Shown in pieces: positions 25,136-37,807 of a stretch of 64,000 bases of DNA (the stretch's first letter is position 1; every line of letters begins with the position of its first letter). The stretch lies in the NCBI GenBank assembly GCA_029907255.1, contig JARYMF010000009.1, forward strand, positions 62,001 through 126,000, in the 5' to 3' direction. Position numbers and translations under genes: made by a program. The notes below the pieces were generated by a model. That model did no database searches and was not told the DNA's origin. It worked only from the letters and a program-made list of their open reading frames with translations. The stretch comes from Armatimonadota bacterium. GTDB taxonomy: Bacteria > Armatimonadota > UBA5829 > DTJY01.

Positions 25136-26023
25136 TTATGTTTGAAAAATTAGGTCGATTATGCGCATTAGGTCATCCTCCCCGTAGAATTCGATTTCTA
25201 TGCGGCCTTTATTTTCATGATTGGTTGAAATCGAAACTTTTGTGCCGAGGAATCGCCTGAGTTTATCTTCGACATTTGCAATATGCGGGTTTGTGTGTCC
25301 ATGACGTCTAGTTTCACGTGAAACTTTGACATGGCGAGGCGGCTTGCCTGTCGCTGACATCCTGGACAGCCTTTCGGCTTCCCTGACACTGAGGCCGTCC
25401 TTGACAATCTTCTCCCATGCCTTGAGTTGTTCTTCGGGGTTTGGAATGGAGAGAAGGGCTCGCGCATGCCCTTCTGTAATCTGCTCGCGGTCGAGGCTTT
25501 CCAAGATTTCTGCTGGAAGGTTCAAAAGACGAAGGGTATTTGCCACCGCCGGGCGGCTTTTTCCAACACGCTCGGCAACTTGCTCCTGCGTTAGACCAAA
25601 TTCATCCATAAGTCGCCGGTAAGCTTGGGCGCATTCGAGAGGTTTAATGTCTTCTCGTTGGAGGTTTTCTATAAGTGCGATCTCAAGCGATTCCCTTTCT
25701 GAGAGCTGCCGAGCGACTCCTGGGATGCTGTCAAGGCCTGCTAGAACCGCCGCTCTGAATCTGCGTTCGCCAGCCACAAGTTCGAACGCACCGTTATCTA
25801 CAGGTCGCACTACGATGGGTTGAAGTATGCCATTTTGTCGTATGGATTCTGCAAGTTCATGAAGTTTCTGGTCGTCAAATGATTTTCGTGGTTGATAGGG
25901 GTTGAGCCTTATCTTGTCAATGTCGATGTCAATGACAGATTGTATTTCAACAGGCCTAGGTATATTCGAGGCATTGTCTTGTTTCTTTGTGTCCATGCGA
26001 GTGTTCTTGTCTATGATGTCCAT
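25136..26023 (-). CDS. parB: ParB/Spo0J-type chromosome partitioning protein
   Basis: CTPase/DNA-binding protein that loads on parS sites and spreads. At 295 residues it has the N-terminal ParB/Srx domain with the CTP motif GERRFRAA (in LVAGERRFRAAVLAG) and ENLQRED, then the HTH (LTQEQVAERVGKSRPAVANTLRLL), then a C-terminal dimerisation domain ending in IIDLIFQT. A parS sequence lies inside the gene. No parA/soj is adjacent on either side, which is unusual because parAB are generally paired. No Shine-Dalgarno precedes ATG 26023; a 7-codon upstream ORF ends 2 bases before it. The HTH-coiled-coil gene follows. Confidence 0.95.
   Translation of the reverse strand: MDIIDKNTRMDTKKQDNASNIPRPVEIQSVIDIDIDKIRLNPYQPRKSFDDQKLHELAESIRQNGILQPIVVRPVDNGAFELVAGERRFRAAVLAGLDSIPGVARQLSERESLEIALIENLQREDIKPLECAQAYRRLMDEFGLTQEQVAERVGKSRPAVANTLRLLNLPAEILESLDREQITEGHARALLSIPNPEEQLKAWEKIVKDGLSVREAERLSRMSATGKPPRHVKVSRETRRHGHTNPHIANVEDKLRRFLGTKVSISTNHENKGRIEIEFYGEDDLMRIIDLIFQT
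25311..25324. promoter_or_regulatory. parS: parS centromere-like site inside parB
   Basis: The perfect 14-bp palindrome GTTTCACGTGAAAC is identical to the core of the widely conserved bacterial parS consensus; the flanking bases (A on the left, T on the right) keep the palindrome to 16 bp though they differ from the usual T...A. It is read within the parB coding sequence as codons of VSRET. A parS inside the parB gene is also known from Bacillus subtilis. Confidence 0.9.
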
Positions 26024-26235: not shown

Positions 26236-26277
26236 AAAAAAACAAGAGAGGCCACTTTTTAAGGAAAGCCTCTCTTG
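26236..26277 (-). terminator. strong intrinsic terminator after the FlgM-like gene
   Basis: On the minus strand a perfect 10-bp stem (CAAGAGAGGC / GCCTCTCTTG) with a 15-base loop is followed directly by seven T's. It starts 27 bases after the FlgM-like stop codon and separates that gene from parB. Confidence 0.9.
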
Positions 26278-26303: not shown

Positions 26304-26609
26304 TTAGCGAATTCTATCTGCGCGCATCCGACGGAGCATCATCTCGGCGATTTCCTCGCCGGAAATTTTGTATTCGCCTTTCTCGATGCGCTCTTTTAGC
26401 CGCATAACTATTTCCTCTCGCACATCGGGCATTTCTTTGACCATTTGAACAACACGCTCAACTTCGGCGGCATCCGGCTCGACTATTTTGGATTCAGGTA
26501 GTTCATCGGCGGTAATCTCTTTGAATTCCAAATCTGGTGTTTTCTGCTTTCCGAGTCTTGTGCTTTCGGCGGCCAAAAGCTTTGCTACTTCTATTGCTGA
26601 TATCTGCAT
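26304..26609 (-). CDS. FlgM-like anti-sigma-28 factor under a c-di-GMP riboswitch
   Basis: A 101-residue protein. Its N-terminal part (MQISAIEVAKLLAAES) and disordered acidic middle are followed by a C-terminal helical region, VERVVQMVKEMPDVREEIVMRLKERI...GEYKISGEEIAEMML. The ERIEKGEYKISGEEIAE stretch matches the FlgM pattern I-x2-G-x-Y-x-V/I-x3-x-I-A, the part that binds the flagellar/motility sigma factor. ATG 26609 is chosen because AGAGGGG (26622-26616) lies 6 bases before it; an upstream in-frame start would lie in the riboswitch hairpin. No flagellar genes are in the window, so the target may be a sigma-28-type factor for motility or another surface program. It is a single-gene unit with its own promoter, riboswitch and terminator. 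Confidence 0.75.
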   Translation of the reverse strand: MQISAIEVAKLLAAESTRLGKQKTPDLEFKEITADELPESKIVEPDAAEVERVVQMVKEMPDVREEIVMRLKERIEKGEYKISGEEIAEMMLRRMRADRIR

Positions 26610-26625
26610 TTTCAGCCCCTCTTCC

Positions 26626-26666
26626 GCTTCGGAGCGCCAAAAACAAAAAGGCAAACGCTCCGAAGC
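26626..26666 (-). promoter_or_regulatory. 11-bp hairpin between riboswitch and gene (expression platform candidate)
   Basis: GCTTCGGAGCG (26666-26656) pairs perfectly with CGCTCCGAAGC (26636-26626). The 19-base loop contains TTTGCC followed by TTTTTGTTTTT. That loop holds the 3' arm that would close the riboswitch P1 stem, so the hairpin and an extended P1 appear to compete. It ends just ahead of the AGAGGGG ribosome-binding site. Confidence 0.6.
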
Positions 26667-26766
26667 TTAGACGGCAACCAGGCTGTCATTCCCGGAATCT
26701 CTTTCCGAGTTTCCCGGGGTTAGACCCTTGGCTTTGCGTCCCCTTCTTTCGAAGAGTTTGCCTTTT
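26647..26766 (-). promoter_or_regulatory. class I cyclic-di-GMP riboswitch (GEMM-I)
   Basis: Read on the minus strand, the leader contains the conserved GEMM-I blocks in order: GGCAAAC (26762-26756); a short helix closed by a GAAA tetraloop (CTCTTC GAAA GAAGGG); GGGACGCAAAGCC; GGGTCTAA (receptor side of the second helix); a variable stem around CCCGGGAA/TTCCGGG; and GACAGCCTGGTTGCCG at the 3' end of the aptamer. The 5' arm AAAAGGCAAAC can pair with GTTTGCCTTTT (26656-26646) to extend P1. The aptamer lies directly upstream of the FlgM-like gene on the same strand. Ligand identity follows from the known family; the direction of control (ON or OFF) is not certain. Confidence 0.93.
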
Positions 26767-26836
26767 CGTTCTTCGTTATTTTTTCCTATTTGTATTATCG
26801 GACTGACTGTGAAATATCTTAAGGGCATTTTTACTA

Positions 26837-26861
26837 AAAATTCTTTTGGCAAAAGAATTTT
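26837..26861 (-). promoter_or_regulatory. perfect 11-bp hairpin at the 5' end of the riboswitch transcript
   Basis: AAAATTCTTTT and AAAAGAATTTT with a 3-base loop form a near-perfect palindrome within a few bases of the predicted transcription start. Positioned first in the leader, it may protect the 5' end of the RNA, or act as an operator in DNA form. Confidence 0.5.
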
Positions 26862-26871
26862 CAGCGCTGTC

Positions 26872-26900
26872 AGTATACCACTCTCTTTGCAGGCTGTCAA
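26872..26900 (-). promoter_or_regulatory. consensus sigma70-type promoter for the riboswitch/FlgM-like unit
   Basis: On the minus strand TTGACA (26900-26895) and TATACT (26877-26872) are separated by exactly 17 bases, predicting transcription from about 26865 into the hairpin and riboswitch. This gives a leader of roughly 255 bases before ATG 26609. The region from 26901 to ~26975 shows nothing else I can name. Confidence 0.85.
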
Positions 26901-35806: not shown

Positions 35807-37807
35807 ATGCGGAAAATTGGCATTCGAAAAGCAAAAGCATCAGGCCAGTCATCTTGGCGTTGGAAACTATGCGCTCTTGTTGCCTGTCTGGTAATGTTGG
35901 TGGGCACAAGCGGTATTTGTGCATTTTACTACTATGCTCGCCAAACACTCTTTGATGAGATATGCAAAAGGCCTGCGTTTTTTGCCAACAGCGTTGCCCA
36001 ACAAATTAACGCAGAAGAGCTTGAGTTGCTTCATGAGCGCGGAGACGAAGATACGGAAGCATACAGGCAAACAAAGAAACTGTTAGTCCGCTATAGAGCC
36101 GCAAATCCCGAAGTAAGACGTATCTACATACTGCGTCCGAGCAAGAATCTCAAGACATGGAAATTTCTCGTAGGCACAGAACAAGGCTCAAAGCTTGTTC
36201 CCCACATCGGCGACAAATTTGACGCATCGCAACTACCAGAATTGAGGGACGCGCTTTTGCGCCCGTCATCCGTCGCGAAGGTCAAGCATGCCCCCTGGGG
36301 CAATTGGATATCAGGATATGCGCCAATTCGGAACAGCTCGGGCCGGTTGGTAGGCGTCGTGGGAGTAGAAGTGTCTGCCAACCAGCTTGAAAGTGAGCTG
36401 GCCCAAATGCGGCGTGTGGGTGCATTTTTCTTGTTAACATCCGTCATATTTTCCATCGTGCTGACCTCAATATTCTCAGCGATTATCTTTCGTCCAATCA
36501 CGCAGTTTGTCAGTCGTTTGCATGCTGTGGTTAAGGGAGAATTGGCAAGGCTTACGGATGACCATAGGTCTGACGAGATAGGACAGGTTGCTAGTGCTTT
36601 CAATGAAATTCTGCAATTGCTCGAACATAAGGAAGAAATGCTTTCCCGGATTAATTTGGACTATCTAACTGGGCTTTACAACCATGGTTACTTTCAAGCC
36701 AGGTTGCAAGAAGAGATTGACCGTGCCAAACAGCAATCGGGCGAACTTGCTCTGCTGATGCTTGATATTGACAGGTTCAAGTTGATTAATGATTCACTGG
36801 GACATATGGCCGGCGATGATATTCTCCGCCAAATAGCTGGTTTGCTTAAGCGAAATCTACACGAAAAGAATATTGCAGCTCGATATGGTGGTGAGGAGTT
36901 TGCCATTATACTACCTGGGGAAGGATTGCTCGGTGCTTTGAAAACTGCCGAGAAGATTAGAAGAGCTGTATCCGCGCATGCGTTTAAGCTTACCAAAGAA
37001 TTGATAGGGGATGCCGAAAACCAAGCAATAAGCTTGACGGTAAGCATAGGGATAGCTGTATACCCGCAGCACAGCAAGGAGAAAATGGGTTTGATAATGG
37101 CGGCGGATTCAGCGCTTTATCAGGCAAAGCGACTTGGGCGTGACCGAGTATGTGCTTACAAAGCCGGAATTGGAGCGCGTGCAAGTGATCCTTCTCATGT
37201 CTCTATGTTCTTGCAAGACCCGACAGGAAGTGCAATTAAGGTCTTGGCTGCAGCCATAGATGCCCGAGACCCATATACGCGAAACCACTCGGAAAATGTT
37301 AGCAGATATGCTTTACTGATAGGCAAGCATTTTGGGCTAGATAATGAGCAGTTGGAGCTATTACATATGGCTGCCCGACTTCACGATATCGGGAAGATTG
37401 GCGTGCCGGACTGTGTGCTTGAAAAACCGGCAAGTCTTACGGAAGATGAGCTAAAACTTGTCAAGACCCATCCGCAGGTAGGCGTTTCGATCATCCGTGG
37501 CTCACAAAATCTTGATTTGATACTCCCGGGAATTCTATATCACCATGAACGCTATGACGGAACAGGTTATCCTTCTGGGCTTGCACAGGAAGAAATACCA
37601 CTTTTTGCGCGAATAATCGCTGTTGCAGATGCTTTCGATGCCTTAACTTCAAACCGGCCATACAGGAAAGGCTTTTCCATAAGCAAAGCAATTGAGGTGT
37701 TGAAGAATAACAGCGGCACCCAGTTTGATCCCAAGGTTGTCGAGGCTTTTCTGAGCGAACTCTCAGCAGAAGGTTTTGAGGAGGAATCACAGGATAAGGC
37801 TGCATAA
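35807..37807 (+). CDS. membrane c-di-GMP enzyme: sensor-HAMP-GGDEF-HD-GYP
   Basis: A 666-residue signalling protein. TM1 (~20-42), a periplasmic sensor region (~45-203, PAS/Cache-like), TM2 (~206-228) and a HAMP linker (~228-280) precede a GGDEF domain (~280-445) and an HD-GYP domain (~480-640). The cyclase active site reads GGEEF (361-365), an active variant; the upstream RxxD product-inhibition site is absent. The phosphodiesterase motifs HDIGKIG and HHERYDGTGYP are intact. It can thus in principle both make and break c-di-GMP, and lies 9 kb from a c-di-GMP riboswitch. It is transcribed alone. Confidence 0.94.
   Translation: MRKIGIRKAKASGQSSWRWKLCALVACLVMLVGTSGICAFYYYARQTLFDEICKRPAFFANSVAQQINAEELELLHERGDEDTEAYRQTKKLLVRYRAANPEVRRIYILRPSKNLKTWKFLVGTEQGSKLVPHIGDKFDASQLPELRDALLRPSSVAKVKHAPWGNWISGYAPIRNSSGRLVGVVGVEVSANQLESELAQMRRVGAFFLLTSVIFSIVLTSIFSAIIFRPITQFVSRLHAVVKGELARLTDDHRSDEIGQVASAFNEILQLLEHKEEMLSRINLDYLTGLYNHGYFQARLQEEIDRAKQQSGELALLMLDIDRFKLINDSLGHMAGDDILRQIAGLLKRNLHEKNIAARYGGEEFAIILPGEGLLGALKTAEKIRRAVSAHAFKLTKELIGDAENQAISLTVSIGIAVYPQHSKEKMGLIMAADSALYQAKRLGRDRVCAYKAGIGARASDPSHVSMFLQDPTGSAIKVLAAAIDARDPYTRNHSENVSRYALLIGKHFGLDNEQLELLHMAARLHDIGKIGVPDCVLEKPASLTEDELKLVKTHPQVGVSIIRGSQNLDLILPGILYHHERYDGTGYPSGLAQEEIPLFARIIAVADAFDALTSNRPYRKGFSISKAIEVLKNNSGTQFDPKVVEAFLSELSAEGFEEESQDKAA

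Follow-up and report, generated by a model that had tools for sequence, protein, structure and literature searches.

On the minus strand of the window (the whole stretch of 64,000 nucleotides that was analyzed, from an Armatimonadota bacterium), a riboswitch aptamer of the c-di-GMP-I (GEMM-I) type is located ahead of a gene of the FlgM anti-sigma family. This is a real pairing, conserved across the phylum and not a one-off. The leader is probably a c-di-GMP ON switch for a second FlgM of the host, which would sequester a FliA/WhiG-family sigma factor, most likely the WhiG-like one encoded on contig C6, with the regulon of that factor shut at high c-di-GMP. All the evidence for this proposal is computational.

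The unit runs from position 26900 down to 26236 and consists of a promoter, the aptamer, a 60-nt linker between the aptamer and the downstream gene, the gene for a 101-residue FlgM protein, and a terminator. These elements and their relevant neighbors are as follows.

26872–26900, minus strand: sigma-70-type promoter TTGACA-17-TATACT with TG before the −10 box; near-consensus, 11/12 matches.
26670–26772, minus strand: c-di-GMP-I (GEMM-I) riboswitch aptamer; RF01051, 78.3 bits, E = 1.1e-13, model positions 1–87 of 87.
26746–26766, minus strand: aptamer 5' strand AAAAGGCAAACUCUUCGAAAG, used by both the aptamer fold and the terminator fold.
26639–26665, minus strand: linker element CUUCGGAGCGUUUGCCUUUUUGUUUUU, the 3' arm and U-run of the ligand-free terminator; complementary to the aptamer 5' strand (duplex z −5.3, 0/300 shuffles).
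26626–26666, minus strand: hairpin GCUUCGGAGCG...CGCUCCGAAGC, formable only after read-through and a rival of the terminator 3' arm (predicted fold, host).
26607–26624, minus strand: ribosome-binding site region GAAGAGGGG with the start codon (direct reading).
26304–26609, minus strand: flgM-type anti-sigma gene, 101 aa; PF04316.
26236–26276, minus strand: intrinsic terminator for the flgM transcript; −21 kcal/mol, z −4.5, with a run of 7 T behind it.
25136–26023, minus strand: parB/noc-like gene, a conserved neighbor.
35807–37807, plus strand: HAMP-GGDEF-HD-GYP protein, one of five GGDEF proteins in the genome; context only.

The aptamer score exceeds the gathering score of 35 used in the Rfam scan, satisfying membership of RF01051 (a weaker match from the same clan was discarded). 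The conserved GEMM-I blocks, namely GGCAAAC, the GAAA tetraloop, GGACGCAAAGCC and AUGACAGCC, are all present, judged from the covariance-model alignment and from invariant columns. The open reading frame in the program-made list begins with TTG at 26654; however, the ATG at 26609 is the likely start codon, judged from the conserved start M-[KQR]-I-[ST]. The encoded protein contains a FlgM domain (PF04316, 50.3 bits, E = 2.7e-13) that scores above the Pfam gathering cut-off of 25. It does not meet the NCBI equivalog for flagellar FlgM, TIGR03824, either by score (35.7 bits, below the cut-off of 40.75) or by context, as the gene adjoins parB and is not found in a flagellar cluster near flgN/flgK.

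The original prediction had proposed a c-di-GMP riboswitch on a FlgM-like gene, with the promoter, the aptamer and its conserved blocks, the gene and a strong terminator all on the minus strand and a GGDEF/HD-GYP enzyme about 9 kb away; every one of these elements was recovered. It would have been refuted by the lack of a significant covariance-model match, or by a protein far from FlgM with no sigma-28 partner in the genome. Neither is the case: the covariance match is strong, the Pfam cut-off is passed, and the genome encodes two factors of the sigma-28 family. The reading of a GEMM-I riboswitch acting on a FlgM-family gene is supported. Three points extend or modify it: the protein is a second FlgM, the expression platform indicates an ON switch, and a WhiG-like sigma factor of non-flagellar type is the likely partner.

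The host genome (3.23 Mb in 33 contigs, 99.7% complete) contains four GEMM-I riboswitches and two FlgM genes. The other FlgM is encoded on contig C7 beside FlgN and FlgK, within an ordinary flagellar cluster that comprises FlhB, FlhA, sigma-28, FlgF/G/A/H/I/J, FlgN, FlgK, FlgL, FliW, FliC, FliD and FliS (names assigned by inspection). No GEMM-I riboswitch was found near this flagellar-cluster flgM in the host genome; the riboswitch gene thus encodes a second, separate FlgM. The two types are also separated in a FlgM tree, built on a short alignment, in which 32 riboswitch-linked proteins fall on one side of a branch with support of 83/91 and 18 riboswitch-free proteins stand apart, with two long-branch exceptions.

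To survey the relatives of the host for the same arrangement, as had been suggested, 61 Armatimonadota genomes (the host and 60 relatives, mostly draft assemblies or metagenome-assembled genomes) were searched, yielding 124 GEMM-I and 68 FlgM matches in total. A GEMM-I aptamer lies on the same strand, 140–263 nt upstream of the FlgM domain, in 32 of the 45 genomes with a FlgM match. By rank, the pairing is present in 4/4 FlgM-bearing genomes of the family, 17/19 in the rest of the class and 11/22 elsewhere in the phylum, although related genomes are not independent. The two exceptions in the class are G015, where the locus ends at a contig edge, and G009, which has a riboswitch-type FlgM without a detectable aptamer (no Rfam match upstream of the gene, L103 on G009:C517). 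If G015 is set aside, the pairing holds in 21 of 22 FlgM-bearing genomes of the class. These counts cover Armatimonadota only. A scan beyond the phylum with a smaller protein alignment returned six loci, all in metagenome-assembled genomes and all on contigs that match, by length, those of genomes already in the set.

The riboswitch-flgM gene is adjoined by parA and/or parB in 23 of the 32 loci. This linkage extends over several families, which points to descent from a single ancestral locus. In the host's own family, parA is absent between flgM and parB (window positions 25136–26023; loci L071–L101). The conserved linkage, together with the score below the flagellar equivalog cut-off, could be taken to mean that the FlgM-like protein has been repurposed and is not an anti-sigma factor, acting for example in chromosome partition with ParA/ParB. 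This we consider quite improbable, since the sigma-binding C-terminal FlgM domain is well preserved in the riboswitch-linked protein, a profile of it and its relatives hits a FlgM chain of solved structure (9wsf_B, E = 1.5e-9), the gene co-occurs with sigma factors of the FliA/WhiG family, and a terminator stands between flgM and parB in the host.

The direction of the switch was inferred from the linker. All 21 flgM leaders of the class carry, in the linker, the element GUUUGYC followed by a run of U's, exact in 16 and as near variants in 5 (G003 is counted with the latter, as its GTTTGCC stands after the U-run). This element is the complement of GGCAAAC in the aptamer 5' strand and occurs in none of the linkers of 36 other GEMM-I riboswitches, mostly from the same genomes. 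When the leader is folded up to the U-run without ligand, the minimum-energy structure is the terminator stem in 21/21 cases, 10–22 kcal/mol below the aptamer with a separate tail, and the mean probability that GGCAAAC pairs with the tail is 0.71–1.00. Folded by itself, the tail is nearly unstructured in 20 of the 21 leaders, and the terminator thus needs the aptamer strand. Most linker/aptamer-strand duplexes are far better than shuffled controls (z down to −6.3), the exceptions with z above −2 being G004, G006, G007, G008 and G024. The same outer helix was recovered by RNAalifold from 19 leaders; with an aptamer strand that hardly varies, little covariation can be expected in this helix, and the case for the terminator is built on conserved complementarity and on the lack of an alternative stem.

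According to these folding calculations, the terminator and the folded aptamer are mutually exclusive in all 21 leaders of the class. In the absence of c-di-GMP, the aptamer 5' strand would pair with the GUUUGCC element of the linker to form the terminator, and the transcript would stop before flgM. With c-di-GMP bound, the 5' strand would be held in the aptamer, precluding the terminator, and flgM would be transcribed; in the host, the extra hairpin is predicted to become available once read-through occurs. High c-di-GMP thus probably turns on the FlgM gene in the class, with ligand binding and actual termination in the cell being inferred from the predicted folds.

The opposite direction, an OFF switch by which c-di-GMP would lower FlgM and free the sigma factor, has precedents among GEMM-I riboswitches, such as Cd1 of Clostridioides difficile (PMC5386303). 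Outside the class, the folding leaves both directions possible: the element is absent from the leaders of f8, G037, G047, G052, G060, G038, G039 and G051, as is the U-run except for a short T4 in G039, and Shine-Dalgarno accessibility estimated by folding gave no consistent answer on the direction in these leaders. Within the class, however, no stem can be placed ahead of the U-run without the 5' strand of the aptamer itself, so that ligand binding should block the terminator, and we regard an OFF switch as very improbable. One specific version of it, operating through a local terminator, was rejected for the class, given how little structure the tail forms by itself.

Further features of GEMM-I leaders were noted. 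Five leaders of the f3 family (G014, G016, G022, G026 and G027; L080, L081, L086, L089 and L090) carry a −10-like TATTAT or TATGAT downstream of the U-run, about 17 nt beyond TTGCC. This could mark an internal promoter from which transcription would bypass the switch. The other GEMM-I riboswitches of the class (L008, L009, L010, L163–L182, L193–L195, L198–L201) often have a different platform, in which the 3' strand of the aptamer (CAGCCTGG) is repeated, often with a T-run after the repeat. The genes after them include small conserved open reading frames (MTIPEAKQYVGKNC..., Cys-rich MANVC...), GGDEF/HD-GYP genes and genes for secreted proteins. Tandem aptamer pairs are present at L180, L193, L172 and L199 (G018:C107, G024:C56, G006:C49 and G037:C116, respectively), and might serve as two-input switches or give a steeper response.

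Both sigma-28 candidates of the host score above the FliA/WhiG cut-off of TIGR02479 (254.9 and 245 bits, compared to 189.6). One is encoded in the flagellar cluster on C7, and the other stands alone on C6 (G000:C6, L107:8577–9371) among genes for glycogen synthase, SurA-like and MazG-like proteins (names by inspection). They are 45% identical, and the riboswitch FlgM might therefore bind either. The stand-alone WhiG-like factor is kept through much of the phylum, including genomes without flagella.

Of the 32 genomes with the riboswitch FlgM, 31 also have a C6-type WhiG-like factor, and the one that does not is 69% complete (Fisher p = 1.4e-7, without correction for phylogeny). A WhiG-like factor without a detected riboswitch FlgM is seen in ten genomes. 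In ten genomes whose only FlgM is the riboswitch type, just one factor exceeds the TIGR02479 cut-off, always a C6-type one. The flagellar-type FlgM goes with the flagellar sigma factor in the class. In G003, G020, G024 and G039 (92–99% complete), FlhA is absent while the riboswitch FlgM and the WhiG-like factor are both retained.

These distributions bear on a different version of the ON switch, in which the second FlgM would act on the flagellar sigma-28 of C7 as an extra brake on flagellation beside the flagellar-cluster FlgM. The full flagellar cluster of the host does include a sigma-28, FlhA is present in 28 of the 32 riboswitch-FlgM genomes, and in several families a single sigma-28 must also serve flagella (that of G037 lies near flhA on the same contig). 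Such a target nevertheless seems unlikely, although it remains a possibility to be reckoned with: genomes with the WhiG-like factor alone carry the riboswitch FlgM alone, the flagellar sigma factor in the class is accompanied by its own type of FlgM, the pair persists in the four genomes lacking FlhA, and the FlgM tree sets the two types apart.

The likely partner of the riboswitch FlgM is thus the non-flagellar, WhiG-like C6 sigma factor and not the flagellar one. The simplest reading is that the riboswitch FlgM restrains the C6-type factor, with their binding, the inhibition and the regulon all being inferred. The FlgM product would capture a FliA/WhiG-family factor, most likely the stand-alone one of C6, and high c-di-GMP would shut down its regulon; where a C6-type factor is the only sigma-28, this regulon would take in the flagellar genes. 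A scan for the flagellar promoter TAAA-N15-GCCGATAA with up to two mismatches gave 422 sites compared to 445 for the reversed control, that is, no enrichment, and most sites with one mismatch lie inside genes. Upstream of fliC, a CCGATAA-like −10 box is present without a clear −35 box. In the absence of enrichment, no regulon is claimed.

The c-di-GMP riboswitches known so far mostly have single output genes or operons as targets. If the preferred reading is correct, a riboswitch that doses an anti-sigma factor would give the messenger control over a whole sigma regulon. Whether this amounts to a phylum-wide circuit of an undescribed kind, in which an anti-sigma factor of the FlgM family, dedicated to a WhiG-type sigma factor of non-flagellar function, is brought into play by a c-di-GMP riboswitch, and which works even in bacteria that no longer have flagella, we judge to be evenly balanced. 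It would also offer an entry point into the biology of the little-studied Armatimonadota, for which our paper searches found little work on c-di-GMP. The original prediction knew of no described case with a FlgM-type protein, and we likewise found no description of a GEMM-I/FlgM pairing in the open-licence full-text literature (the search did not extend to subscription papers, among them some of the early GEMM literature).

Parts of the proposed circuit resemble known systems. The canonical flagellar FlgM, represented by the C7 copy, shares the PF04316 domain and the size of the riboswitch FlgM. It differs in its location beside FlgN/FlgK, the lack of a riboswitch and its position on the other side of the FlgM tree, and it fits the flagellar sigma factor. 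The Bc1 riboswitch of Bacillus thuringiensis and the B. cereus group provides a parallel for the predicted switch, as structure probing indicates that a terminator which forms without c-di-GMP is unfolded when the ligand is present; however, Bc1 controls mcpE and has dual terminators, and its authors found downstream expression unresponsive to c-di-GMP under the conditions tested (PMC11218506). Cd1 of C. difficile has the same aptamer class and ties c-di-GMP to the regulon of a sigma-28 (SigD), with high c-di-GMP lowering sigma output, but it is an OFF switch on the flgB operon, which includes the sigma gene itself (PMC5386303), whereas the Armatimonadota leader is a predicted ON switch on an anti-sigma gene.

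In its outcome, the proposed circuit is like the RsiG-WhiG system of Streptomyces and Rubrobacter, where RsiG loaded with c-di-GMP holds WhiG, which belongs to the flagellar sigma clade (PMC8325347). As in that system, c-di-GMP would govern an anti-sigma factor directed at a WhiG-type sigma factor, and high c-di-GMP should turn the sigma factor off. In the actinobacterial system, the ligand binds the anti-sigma protein, whereas the riboswitch in Armatimonadota, a different phylum, would set the amount of a FlgM-family anti-sigma factor. The same logic would thus be reached by an independent route, making the Armatimonadota circuit a second, distinct way to solve this control problem.
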